Shown here one piece after another: positions 12,034 through 21,326 of a DNA stretch of 64,000 bases. How positions within the stretch are numbered: position 1 is the stretch's first letter; the number at the start of each line of letters is the position of its first letter. Under the pieces are notes generated by a model that saw only the letters and a list, made by a program, of their open reading frames with translations, did no database searches and was not told where the DNA came from. Both the position numbers and the translations under genes were made by a program. The DNA is from Mariprofundus sp. NF (GTDB lineage Bacteria; Pseudomonadota; Zetaproteobacteria; Mariprofundales; Mariprofundaceae): the NCBI RefSeq assembly GCF_013387455.1, contig NZ_VWNC01000006.1, positions 62,001 through 126,000 of the forward strand. Reading direction: 5' to 3'.

Positions 12034-12402
12034 ATGAAAAAAATTATCATGATCACCACAGCAGCAACCATGTTAATGAGCGGCGTTGCTATTACAGAAG
12101 CGGTAGCCGGAGCAGAGAGTAAGTGTAAGTCATGCCACACCTTTGATCAGGGTGATAAAAATAAGGTTGGCCCTAACCTGTTTGGTATCATGGGTAAGAA
12201 GGCTGGTTCTGTTGAAGGCTTTAAATATGGAACGTATCTGAAAGGTGCTGATTTCGTATGGAATGAAGAGAATATGAAGGCTTGGATTGCCGACTCCAAA
12301 GGCATGGCAAAAGCAGCAGGCGGCAAGAGCAAGATGAGTTCTCAGAAGGTAACTGGTGCCAAAGCTGATGAGGTCATTGCATTTCTCAATGGTCTGAAAT
12401 AA
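12034..12402 (+). CDS. Small class I cytochrome c
   Basis: A 122-residue periplasmic electron carrier. A signal peptide ends near residue 26 (EAVAGAES), and the single haem site CKSCH is at residues 31-35, followed by GPNLFGIMGKKAG, a typical c2/c550-like segment. The likely axial methionine is M101 in KSKMSS; the usual KMPF context is changed to KMSS, so the sixth ligand is not certain. A strong promoter and AGGAG ribosome site suggest high expression, and the gene stands alone between two terminators. In an iron oxidiser such a carrier would bridge outer-membrane iron oxidation and the inner-membrane chain; that role is an inference. Confidence 0.9.
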   Translation: MKKIIMITTAATMLMSGVAITEAVAGAESKCKSCHTFDQGDKNKVGPNLFGIMGKKAGSVEGFKYGTYLKGADFVWNEENMKAWIADSKGMAKAAGGKSKMSSQKVTGAKADEVIAFLNGLK

Positions 12403-13643: not shown

Positions 13644-15602
13644 TTAAACGTGCTCTTCTGGAGAGATCACAACCTGGTTTCGCCCACTATCCTTGGCTTT
13701 GTAGAGGGCACCATCCGCACGCTCCAACCAGGACTCAATAGAGATATCCCAGCTCTGCTCAAGAGAAGCCAGGCCGATGGATATAGTCCAGGATATATGC
13801 TCATTTTTATAGATGGTACTCATCTGCTCAGCGGCCTCCCGCAACCGCTCAGCAAGGATAGTGGCACTCTTTGAATCGGTATGAGGCAGAATGATCACAA
13901 ACTCTTCACCACCATAGCGCGCCACCACATCCACAGTTCGCGTCATTTTGCGCATCAGTTCAGCAAATTCGATCAGGCAGGCATCACCTGCGGCATGGCC
14001 GTAGTGATCATTCACCTTTTTAAAATAATCGATATCAAGAAACATAAGTGATATCGGATGTTTATATCGCTTAGCGCGCGAGAGCTCTTCAATAATTCGC
14101 GTATCAAATGTGATGCGGTTATAGAGCCCGGTCAGGCCATCCTTGCTGGCCATAGCCTCCAGTTGGCGCTCCAGTTTTTTCGTTTCGGTGATATCATGAA
14201 TAATCGCACCATAATAGTGCTCGCCATCCGAACCCCAGGTTGAGAGAGAAAAACGTATATCGATCTCTTCTCCATCTTTCTTCAGGCCATGCAACTCCAT
14301 GGTTTTATCAATAAGTACTGGATAACCGTTCTCTTTATAGTGCTGGATACCCTGATTGTGCATCTCCCGATAGCGTTCAGGCATGATCATGGTCACCTGT
14401 TCACCAAGCGTCTCAGACTCCGTATAACCGAAGGTATAGGTGGCGCCGCCATTCCATGAAACAATTTCTCCATCTCCATCGGTAATAATAATGGCATCTT
14501 TTGCAGTCTCAGTGACTGATCTAAAGCGCCGCTCTGAAACCATTAACTGCTTCTCGGCAAGATGGTGCCTATTCATCGCATCGGCACCAATCCATGAACC
14601 AATAGCAAACAGCAGGGCAAAAATAACATTGAAAAGAATATAGCGTTCACGTTGAACCTGACTCATCAAATCCAGTTCCTGCGGTGATACATAGGAGATG
14701 ATCCACCACCAATTCGAAGTTGCAGAAGGATTAATCGAATGCCCTTCCAGTGTTGGGGCTGCTGAAATCCTCGTATAGGCAAAAAAGCCGGAATCCAGAG
14801 AGAGGGTGCCATTTTCACTGCTCATCACTATTTTTGCAGCTTCAGGAAAGCGTTTCTGGAATGTTCTATCCCTACCTTCGGAAAACATAAACCCCCACTC
14901 ATCCTCACGCTGCAACCCCTTCAACCAATAGCCCTCGGCATTGATCAACAATGTTTTCCCGACGCCTGCAGATACCAGCTTCTCAAACGGACTAAGCAGC
15001 CCCTCACCAACCATATTAAGAATGATTATGGCGCGTTTATTGCCACGCTCATCAAATATTGGAGTTGCCATCCGAATGACAGGATTCAGTGGCTGTTGGA
15101 TTGCCCCGTGTTCGATATTCAGATCAAATGGAGAGATATAGAATTCGCCCTCACCCAGTGCGACAATCTCTTTAAAGTAATACCTCTCGCTTTTATTCTG
15201 CAGTTTGGATGCTTGAATAACCACGGGAGCTCCGCTATTGCTGTTAACGCGAAAAATTTCATTACCATCAAGATCGAGGATTCGAGCCTGATCATAAATA
15301 TCCTTATGCTCCATAAATGCTACAATCTCATTGGCCAGATCATGACGATGAGTTTCGCCATCACTGGCAAACAGGAGTTTCAGTTCATGCTGTGAGGAGA
15401 GCACCATCAAATCCGACATGAACAGATTCAGGGTCTTCTCAATACCATCTTTCTGATACGTAAGCAGAGAGGCATGTTTGGATTGCAGTCGAGCCTGATC
15501 TGCCTCTATGGTGGCAAAATAGAGGTTCAACGAAATGGCAGTGGTAATCAACACAAGCGGCACAAAAAATGTAAGGAACCGCTTCAGTCGGAAAGATAGC
15601 AT
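13644..15602 (-). CDS. Membrane sensor diguanylate cyclase with PAS domain
   Basis: A 652-residue signalling protein that should make c-di-GMP from two GTP. A transmembrane helix (about 9-28), a periplasmic Cache-like sensor region (about 30-315) and a second helix (about 318-336) precede a PAS domain (about 355-475) and a C-terminal GGDEF domain (about 485-645) with an intact RYGGEEF active site and the metal-binding FLDIDYFKKVNDHYGH segment. The periplasmic part contains YFKEIVALGEGEFYISP, a pattern common in dCache sensors of small ligands. It is preceded and followed by unrelated genes, so its stimulus cannot be deduced. The start at 15602 sits directly before the first helix. Confidence 0.92.
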   Translation of the reverse strand: MLSFRLKRFLTFFVPLVLITTAISLNLYFATIEADQARLQSKHASLLTYQKDGIEKTLNLFMSDLMVLSSQHELKLLFASDGETHRHDLANEIVAFMEHKDIYDQARILDLDGNEIFRVNSNSGAPVVIQASKLQNKSERYYFKEIVALGEGEFYISPFDLNIEHGAIQQPLNPVIRMATPIFDERGNKRAIIILNMVGEGLLSPFEKLVSAGVGKTLLINAEGYWLKGLQREDEWGFMFSEGRDRTFQKRFPEAAKIVMSSENGTLSLDSGFFAYTRISAAPTLEGHSINPSATSNWWWIISYVSPQELDLMSQVQRERYILFNVIFALLFAIGSWIGADAMNRHHLAEKQLMVSERRFRSVTETAKDAIIITDGDGEIVSWNGGATYTFGYTESETLGEQVTMIMPERYREMHNQGIQHYKENGYPVLIDKTMELHGLKKDGEEIDIRFSLSTWGSDGEHYYGAIIHDITETKKLERQLEAMASKDGLTGLYNRITFDTRIIEELSRAKRYKHPISLMFLDIDYFKKVNDHYGHAAGDACLIEFAELMRKMTRTVDVVARYGGEEFVIILPHTDSKSATILAERLREAAEQMSTIYKNEHISWTISIGLASLEQSWDISIESWLERADGALYKAKDSGRNQVVISPEEHV

Positions 15603-19463: not shown

Positions 19464-21326
19464 ATGCGCATTCGGACCAAAGTTTCTATTCTTATTCTGC
19501 TATCCACACTGGCCATGGTGGTGATGCTGGCCGGTGTATCACTGCTCTCCTTCCGCTCCACTTCACTGGAGAATGAGAGAGAACATGGAGAGATGGCATC
19601 TGAACTGGCTCGCAATGAACTACTACTGAGCTTTCTTGCTGGCGACTACGATCATGAGGCATTGGAAAAACATATTAGAAGTCATATTGCCGATCTGCAT
19701 GAAATCCGCATCGTGCGCACGCAGGCGACAGAGAAGCAGTACGGCAAAGGGACTCATGAGCCCAATGATGCAGAAAAAATAGCCCTGAGAACCGGCACTT
19801 CAAATGATCGCATGATCGAAACGGCCGAGGGTGTAAAATACCAGTACATCACCCCCTACTACGCTGAAAAAACATGCCTGCAGTGCCACGACGTCAACGA
19901 AGGTACACTGCTCGGCCTGGTAAATATCGAACTGGATCTTACAGATCAGCGTGCCAGTGCCTTATCCTCAACCTATGCTCTCATTGCTGCATTTATAGTC
20001 TTCGCCATTGTGCTCGGTTACATCCTTCGCCAACTTCTTATGCCCATTGTTGCTACCGCCACATCGATGCGTGATGTGGTTGCCCATGCCAAGGAGGGTA
20101 ACTTTTCTGGCCGTATGGAAGAGGGTCGCAATGATGAACTGGGTCAGGTAGCAACCCAAACCAATCACCTCATGGATACGCTGGAGCAGAGTTTTGGCAC
20201 CATTATCAAAGAGGTCGAATCGATGGAGGTTCACAGCATCACAACTGGTGAGGGTAACCTGCTCACCCGTACGGTGGACTCGGTAAAAACTATGGTGGGT
20301 GCCGTACGCTTTAAACAGACTATTGAAGAGGATCGCAACCTTGGTGATGTCTATGAACGCATTTTTCAGGCACTCACAGACACCTTCCAGATCAAACGCT
20401 TTTCACTCTATGAAGTGAACCATGACAAACAGCTGATGAAGCTTATTTATGCGCATGGGCTTCCGGAAGAGCAAACGCTCTGGTGCAACCCTGAGGTCAA
20501 TGTCGATTCGTCTGCATGCAGAGCCTGCAGAACTGCCCACGATGTTAATTCTGAAGAGGAGGAGAATATCTGCACCTCATTTGCCGGTAACCGCATCTGC
20601 TCCAAAGATGAGATTCATCTGCACCACTTCTGCATCCCGCTGATGCAGGGTGGCCGTATCGGGGTTGTGTTGCAAATCATCCATGCCGACAGCGAAGCCG
20701 CAGAGATCAAAAAGAAGCTGCCGTTTATCCGTACTTACTTCAGTGAAGCTTCGCCGGTGATTGAGTCCAAGCGCCTCACAGAGGTGTTGCATGCATCGAC
20801 TCTCAAGGATCCGATGACTGATCTTTATAACCGCCGTTTCCTTGATCAATTCAAATCACGGCTGATTGCTTCAGCCCAGCGCAGTAAAAAGAAGATCGGC
20901 CTGCTGATGTGCGATGTCGATTTTTTCAAAGATACCAATGACACCTATGGTCATAAGGTCGGCGACACCGTATTGATTGCTACGGCCAATATTCTTGCCA
21001 AGGCGATACGCCCATCAGATTACGTCATCCGCTATGGCGGCGAGGAGTTTCTGGTTGTTATTTCCGAGGCTGAAGAGGAGAAGACGCTGGAGATTGCCGA
21101 GCGCATCCGTAAAACACTGGAAGAGAATCAGTTCAATGCCGAGGGCAGTACTTTTAATAAAACACTATCTATCGGTGTGGCGATCTATGCAGATGATTCT
21201 GATGATCTGGACAAGTGTATTCATCTGGCTGATACAGCACTGTATGTTGCCAAGGATACCGGACGTAATCAGGTGATCCGATATCAGGAAGGCATGGAAA
21301 AAGAGGATTCCGACAACGAAGGTTAA
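19464..21326 (+). CDS. Diguanylate cyclase with periplasmic haem c sensor domain
   Basis: A 620-residue signalling protein: transmembrane helix (about 8-30), a periplasmic DUF3365/Tll0287-like domain with a covalent haem c motif CLQCH at 138-142 in the context KYQYITPYYAEKTCLQC, a second helix (about 170-188), HAMP (about 190-243), a GAF-like domain (about 290-430) with six cysteines (341, 352, 355, 370, 379, 390), and a GGDEF domain with intact RYGGEEF (523-529) and CDVDFFKDTNDTYGH. It should make c-di-GMP in response to redox state, gas or ligand at the haem. The Cys-rich GAF may bind a metal or form disulfides. It stands alone; no terminator is visible. Haem attachment requires the cytochrome c maturation system. 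Confidence 0.9.
   Translation: MRIRTKVSILILLSTLAMVVMLAGVSLLSFRSTSLENEREHGEMASELARNELLLSFLAGDYDHEALEKHIRSHIADLHEIRIVRTQATEKQYGKGTHEPNDAEKIALRTGTSNDRMIETAEGVKYQYITPYYAEKTCLQCHDVNEGTLLGLVNIELDLTDQRASALSSTYALIAAFIVFAIVLGYILRQLLMPIVATATSMRDVVAHAKEGNFSGRMEEGRNDELGQVATQTNHLMDTLEQSFGTIIKEVESMEVHSITTGEGNLLTRTVDSVKTMVGAVRFKQTIEEDRNLGDVYERIFQALTDTFQIKRFSLYEVNHDKQLMKLIYAHGLPEEQTLWCNPEVNVDSSACRACRTAHDVNSEEEENICTSFAGNRICSKDEIHLHHFCIPLMQGGRIGVVLQIIHADSEAAEIKKKLPFIRTYFSEASPVIESKRLTEVLHASTLKDPMTDLYNRRFLDQFKSRLIASAQRSKKKIGLLMCDVDFFKDTNDTYGHKVGDTVLIATANILAKAIRPSDYVIRYGGEEFLVVISEAEEEKTLEIAERIRKTLEENQFNAEGSTFNKTLSIGVAIYADDSDDLDKCIHLADTALYVAKDTGRNQVIRYQEGMEKEDSDNEG

Follow-up and report, generated by a model that had tools for sequence, protein, structure and literature searches.

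The window analysed here, a stretch of 64,000 nucleotides from the genome of Mariprofundus sp. NF, contains at 19464-21326 a plus-strand reading frame of 620 amino acids, open from the first ATG, GTG or TTG codon after the preceding stop. Its product has, in a single chain, a first transmembrane helix, a haem-c Cache domain, a second transmembrane helix, a HAMP domain, a GAF domain with four conserved cysteines and a GGDEF domain. The features of the gene, in window coordinates and with residue numbers of the protein, are as follows:

19464-21326, plus strand: predicted diguanylate cyclase gene (620 aa; full-length homologues at 34-95% identity)
19470-19556, plus strand: transmembrane helix 1, residues ~3-31 (hydropathy)
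19545-19967, plus strand: haem-c Cache domain, residues 28-168, including the edges of the transmembrane helices (weak PF11845 and PF21563 matches; AlphaFold)
19632-19634, plus strand: codon of F57, at the position of the axial Met60 of GSU0935 (profile alignment to 3b42; family alignment and tree)
19875-19889, plus strand: CLQCH, putative motif for the attachment of haem c, residues 138-142 (no exception in 33/33 full-length homologues)
19953-20060, plus strand: transmembrane helix 2, residues ~164-199 (hydropathy)
20067-20189, plus strand: HAMP domain, residues 202-242, below the Pfam cut-off (PF00672, E 0.0028)
20226-20783, plus strand: linker helix and GAF domain, residues 255-440 (AlphaFold pLDDT 86; PDB GAF matches; Pfam GAF matches of relatives)
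20484-20633, plus strand: C341, C352, C370 and C390 with H388, C-x10-C-x17-C-x17-H-x-C (60/61 relatives)
20805-21272, plus strand: GGDEF domain, residues 448-603 (PF00990, E 1e-48; motif alignment)

The gene stands alone, separated by a 356-base gap from the upstream radical-SAM gene and convergent with the downstream ion-channel gene; a pattern scan found no terminator-like site at the gene and no promoter-like site on its strand. Genes for NhaA, the radical-SAM protein and the ion channel adjoin it also in Mariprofundus sp. KV, but at the more remote loci that were inspected, a number of them on short contigs, none of these three neighbours was found. There is no functional clue in the gene neighbourhood, nor is there among the neighbours any iron-oxidation gene that would support a link to Fe(II). 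A second membrane cyclase is encoded about 4 kb upstream (13644-15602, minus strand), with a histidine-kinase-type sensor domain, a PAS domain and a GGDEF domain with RYGGEEF, and a small, secreted-looking cytochrome c with a CKSCH motif is found near the two cyclases (12034-12402, plus strand).

At the output end of the protein, the GGDEF domain has its motifs intact, with RYGGEEF at 523-529 and the catalytic, metal-binding Asp motif as DVDFF, and a product-inhibition I-site (RxxD) is present as RPSD at 516-519; on these motifs the protein is probably a diguanylate cyclase that makes c-di-GMP, and the one-piece sensor-cyclase described in the earlier note is borne out. The HAMP domain named there is located where expected, after the second transmembrane helix, but scores 18.4 bits against a cut-off of 25. 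In the Zetaproteobacteria, c-di-GMP has been tied to attachment and stalk formation on genomic grounds (PMC8250860), and surface attachment would be a reasonable output given the known role of the messenger.

Residues ~32-163, between the two hydrophobic segments, should be periplasmic. PF11845 (Tll0287-like) matches this region with an E-value of 2-3e-4 and 21.6-22.6 bits, just under its curated cut-off of 24.1, so that we call the protein a divergent relative on the grounds of fold and motif, not a Pfam member. The AlphaFold model of the domain (pLDDT 85) has a Cache-like fold, and among PDB structures it matches best that of the Geobacter haem-c sensor domain GSU0935 (3b42, E 2e-5), then those of the sensor domains of WalK, GSU0582, DcuS and CitA, all at modest TM-scores of 0.47-0.57; the large rmsd to GSU0935 would be explained by comparison of a domain-swapped dimer crystal with a monomer model. 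A profile search also puts GSU0935 first, weakly (E 0.025), and a single-sequence search of the PDB with the window protein returned GGDEF domains and weak chemoreceptor matches, nothing else. The CLQCH motif sits between model strands E96-106 and E122-131, as in the Cache fold with a haem-motif insert. Its residues C138, C141 and H142 do not vary among the full-length homologues (33/33), a set picked by overall similarity, and the motif is therefore not a chance occurrence; the earlier note had pointed to this same periplasmic site. Taken together, fold model and motif mark the domain as related to, but divergent from, the haem-c Cache group (DUF3365/Tll0287, “sCache_heme”).

Haem attachment is also plausible with regard to the maturation machinery, as the genome encodes a ResB homologue (G000:C4:54474-56057) of System II cytochrome c maturation. 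We could not find CcmE in the same genome, and maturation there appears to be of the System II type. Given the haem-Cache fold, the invariant CxxCH and the genomic ResB, it is very likely that the protein carries a covalent haem c on its periplasmic side.

Homologues were searched for in genome contigs and in 74 genomes of the same family. The closest are those of Mariprofundus sp. KV (95% identity) and of a Zetaproteobacteria MAG (78%), and proteins with the same domain order are found at 34-45% identity in other Zetaproteobacteria, Gallionella and Rhodospirillaceae MAGs. A search of 399 genomes of the phylum with the GAF alignment gave matches in 70, most of them in open frames of ~620-670 aa, and of those read most had both CxxCH and GGEEF; a plasmid search gave partial matches only. 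The conservation over the full length and the matches across the phylum indicate an old architecture, under selection and not confined to the Mariprofundus family. The connection to iron oxidation drawn in the earlier note is one of lineage only, as carried by the 95% identical protein of Mariprofundus sp. KV, and the architecture extends well beyond that family.

The genome itself encodes three copies of the haem-GAF-GGDEF architecture, namely the window protein and two paralogues (L114 and L115). Two further proteins have strong PF11845 scores: a haem-Cache GGDEF protein of 473 aa which has no GAF domain (L116; 3215-4633, minus strand) and a haem-Cache PAS histidine kinase of 757 aa (L117; 3881-6151, plus strand), these other two PF11845 proteins of the genome scoring 94 and 86 bits. 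In total the 2.5 Mb genome codes for five predicted haem-c sensors, of which four have a cyclase domain.

In GSU0935 the haem iron is ligated by His144 and, in the low-spin form, by Met60, and the proposed signal is that the Met is let go on oxidation; a redox-linked spin change and the binding of NO and CO have been described, and the potentials are -251 mV for GSU0935 and -156 mV for GSU0582 (PMC8396549). In the profile alignment to 3b42 the His of CxxCH is chain residue 110, so that Met60 is chain residue 26, which falls on profile position 30 and from there on F57 of the window protein, free of gaps from the start of the helix. Across the wide family, 48 haem relatives have a residue at position 57, and in 43 of them it is Met, with Thr and Val in single relatives. 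Only three proteins have Phe, namely L004, L005 and the window protein itself, and they group together in a single clade (support 100/100). The paralogues L114 and L115, from the window protein's own genome, retain Met. The window protein has thus very probably lost the Met switch: with Phe in place of the Met60 equivalent, the on/off redox switch of the Geobacter protein cannot operate at the same residue. M44 was considered as an axial Met; it is present in 27/33 proteins of the near set, but its conservation does not extend to the wider one, and the profile alignment, which places Met60 at residue 57, also speaks against it. A substitute ligand could be provided by H64 or H41, found in 13/50 and 12/50 haem relatives, respectively.

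On chemical grounds, such a site should leave the haem of the window protein five-coordinate or with water as a ligand, and more accessible to NO or CO, or else should give it a different redox response. This bears on a central claim of the earlier note, that the protein reads the redox state of the periplasm. Electron carriers of the periplasm would then oxidise or reduce the haem and so set cyclase activity, in the way put forward for GSU0935 and GSU0582, and the nearest solved fold is indeed that of GSU0935; however, the Met that switches in Geobacter is Phe here, and potentials of -251 and -156 mV (GSU0935 and GSU0582) seem too low to suit carriers that take part in Fe(II) oxidation. The lineage of iron oxidisers would suit redox sensing, as would the haem-c periplasmic chemoreceptor DcrA, described as a redox or oxygen sensor (PMC8396549). 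With the switch residue changed, and with a related sCache_heme protein that binds NO and not O2, the claim is not supported as stated, and we regard redox sensing by electron carriers as possible, if on the unlikely side.

The reading we favour, and hold to be somewhat more probable than otherwise, is a one-component membrane receptor in which a haem-c Cache domain with an open haem site controls c-di-GMP synthesis, joined to a four-Cys GAF domain. The covalent haem c would be carried in the periplasmic single-Cache domain and, with F57 in place of the distal Met, would be five-coordinate or water-ligated. A change in ligation or oxidation of the haem would displace the first helix relative to the Cache core, and this displacement would be passed on through the second transmembrane helix, the HAMP domain and the helical linker to the GAF-GGDEF dimer, where cyclase activity would be altered, whether up or down. 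As the trigger, the binding of a small ligand, with NO ahead of CO as the candidate, or simple oxidation of the haem would be likelier than a redox-linked exchange of Met. We could not find NirS in the genome, which accordingly encodes no NO source of the NirS kind.

It could also be argued that the haem is structural and that what is sensed is some other small ligand, bound in the Cache pocket, organic ligands being usual for Cache domains (PMC12889525). The invariance of the haem motif argues against this, as do the related domains that have been solved or assayed, which respond via the haem, and we consider a structural haem very unlikely.

The region between HAMP and GGDEF gave no Pfam match in the window protein alone. 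The model of this region (pLDDT 86) matches solved GAF domains, and Pfam assigns GAF in 9/27 and GAF_2 in 8/27 relatives, with GAF_3 matches too. The earlier note had described a GAF-like domain with six cysteines; the fold and the six residues (341, 352, 355, 370, 379 and 390) are there, but the set as a whole is not conserved, as the position of C355 is usually K, Q, N or R, and C379 lies in an insertion and is Cys in three sequences only. C341, C352, C370 and C390, in contrast, are invariant in the 33 full-length homologues, and the complete set is found in 60/61 relatives, among them those that have no haem; the one that departs from it is the distant L019. H388, too, hardly varies.

Nine relatives in the tree that have no haem motif retain all four cysteines; in two of the nine the haem domain is replaced by sCache_2 (L158) or by a different periplasmic region (L018). 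This suggests that the GAF-GGDEF unit is a module joined to different sensors, and that the cysteines do not serve the haem. One genome (G081) encodes a GAF-GGDEF paralogue with the four cysteines and no haem domain (L165) and has the haem version (L164) as well. Another (G067, contig 25, 75549-77406) has a homologue in two pieces, a haem-GAF frame of 472 aa and a second frame with the GGDEF domain (L157 and L102), in which the first GAF cysteine positions look degraded, possibly reflecting a decaying copy.

Most likely the four cysteines bind a metal or an Fe-S cluster, which would give the protein either an additional, independent input or a site with a structural role. A cytoplasmic disulfide switch at these residues is less likely. 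The second reading of the redox state through the cysteine-rich GAF domain, put forward in the earlier note, has conserved cysteines in its favour, but a module that also occurs without the haem makes the two inputs separable. One might go further and take the four-Cys site as the main regulator, sensing by Fe-S, iron or NO, with the haem domain as a modulator: the cysteines survive exchange of the haem domain for sCache_2 or other sensors, and the AirS kinase senses oxidants and NO by a Cys-ligated [2Fe-2S] cluster (PMC4601167). Their spacing, however, is unlike that in AirS (C-x7-C-x-C-x17-C), a structural Zn site would fit equally well, and the haem motif is just as invariant among full-length homologues; we consider this rather unlikely. 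Bolder still, and distinctly improbable in our estimate, would be a dual-cofactor receptor in which an open-site haem c outside and a four-Cys Fe-S or iron site inside jointly gate c-di-GMP, comparing a periplasmic with a cytoplasmic signal (NO, oxidants, redox), with Met-type and Phe-type proteins splitting redox and gas inputs in the same cell.

The family is widespread, a natural change from Met to Phe at the axial ligand is found in one of its clades, and both types occur in one genome, so that redox versus NO sensing in haem-Cache proteins becomes directly testable by comparison of paralogues. A search for a cofactor would have an obvious target in the conserved four-Cys GAF-GGDEF module, which occurs both together with the haem domain and apart from it.

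Several known systems share parts of this architecture. The haem-, iron- or redox-controlled enzymes of c-di-GMP turnover DgcO, PdeO, Bhr-HD-GYP and RmcA carry cofactors (b-type haem, hemerythrin iron, flavin) that are non-covalent and mostly cytoplasmic, and the terms “c-type” and “iron-sulfur” are absent from the text of the review describing them (PMC8846402); we found no characterised diguanylate cyclase controlled by a covalent haem c in the literature searched. AirS of Staphylococcus aureus (PMC4601167), by description, also has four cysteines in a cytoplasmic sensory region, where they hold a [2Fe-2S] cluster reacting with oxidants and NO, but with another spacing and a kinase output. 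The four-Cys GAF domain is conserved and undescribed, in that no account of such a domain in a cyclase was found in the open-access literature. Geobacter GSU2622 (PMC8396549) likewise combines, by description, a haem c motif, HAMP, GAF and a c-di-GMP output, which in its case is an HD-GYP domain that degrades c-di-GMP, whereas the GGDEF domain of the window protein would make it. GSU0935 and GSU0582 (3b42, 3b47) give the best fold and profile match and have the same CxxCH position in a periplasmic domain, but they drive chemotaxis receptors and have the axial Met60 where the window protein has Phe57.

The closest comparison is with the DUF3365/Tll0287 group, described in a 2026 preprint as Cache domains with covalent haem c, fused to kinases, chemoreceptors and GGDEF/EAL enzymes; a signalling-type member bound NO tightly in vitro and let it go slowly, and no stable complex with O2 was formed (PMC12889525). 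As GGDEF fusions are already included there, the basic idea of a haem-c cyclase is not new. The main text of the preprint, on a term search, makes no mention of a GAF domain or of the Met position. Shared with the sCache_heme proteins are the periplasmic single-Cache fold, CxxCH, transmembrane helices, HAMP and outputs including GGDEF, whereas the window protein falls just under the Pfam cut-off and has the four-Cys GAF in addition; it is best described as a conserved haem-c cyclase of this recently described kind, with a probable open haem site.
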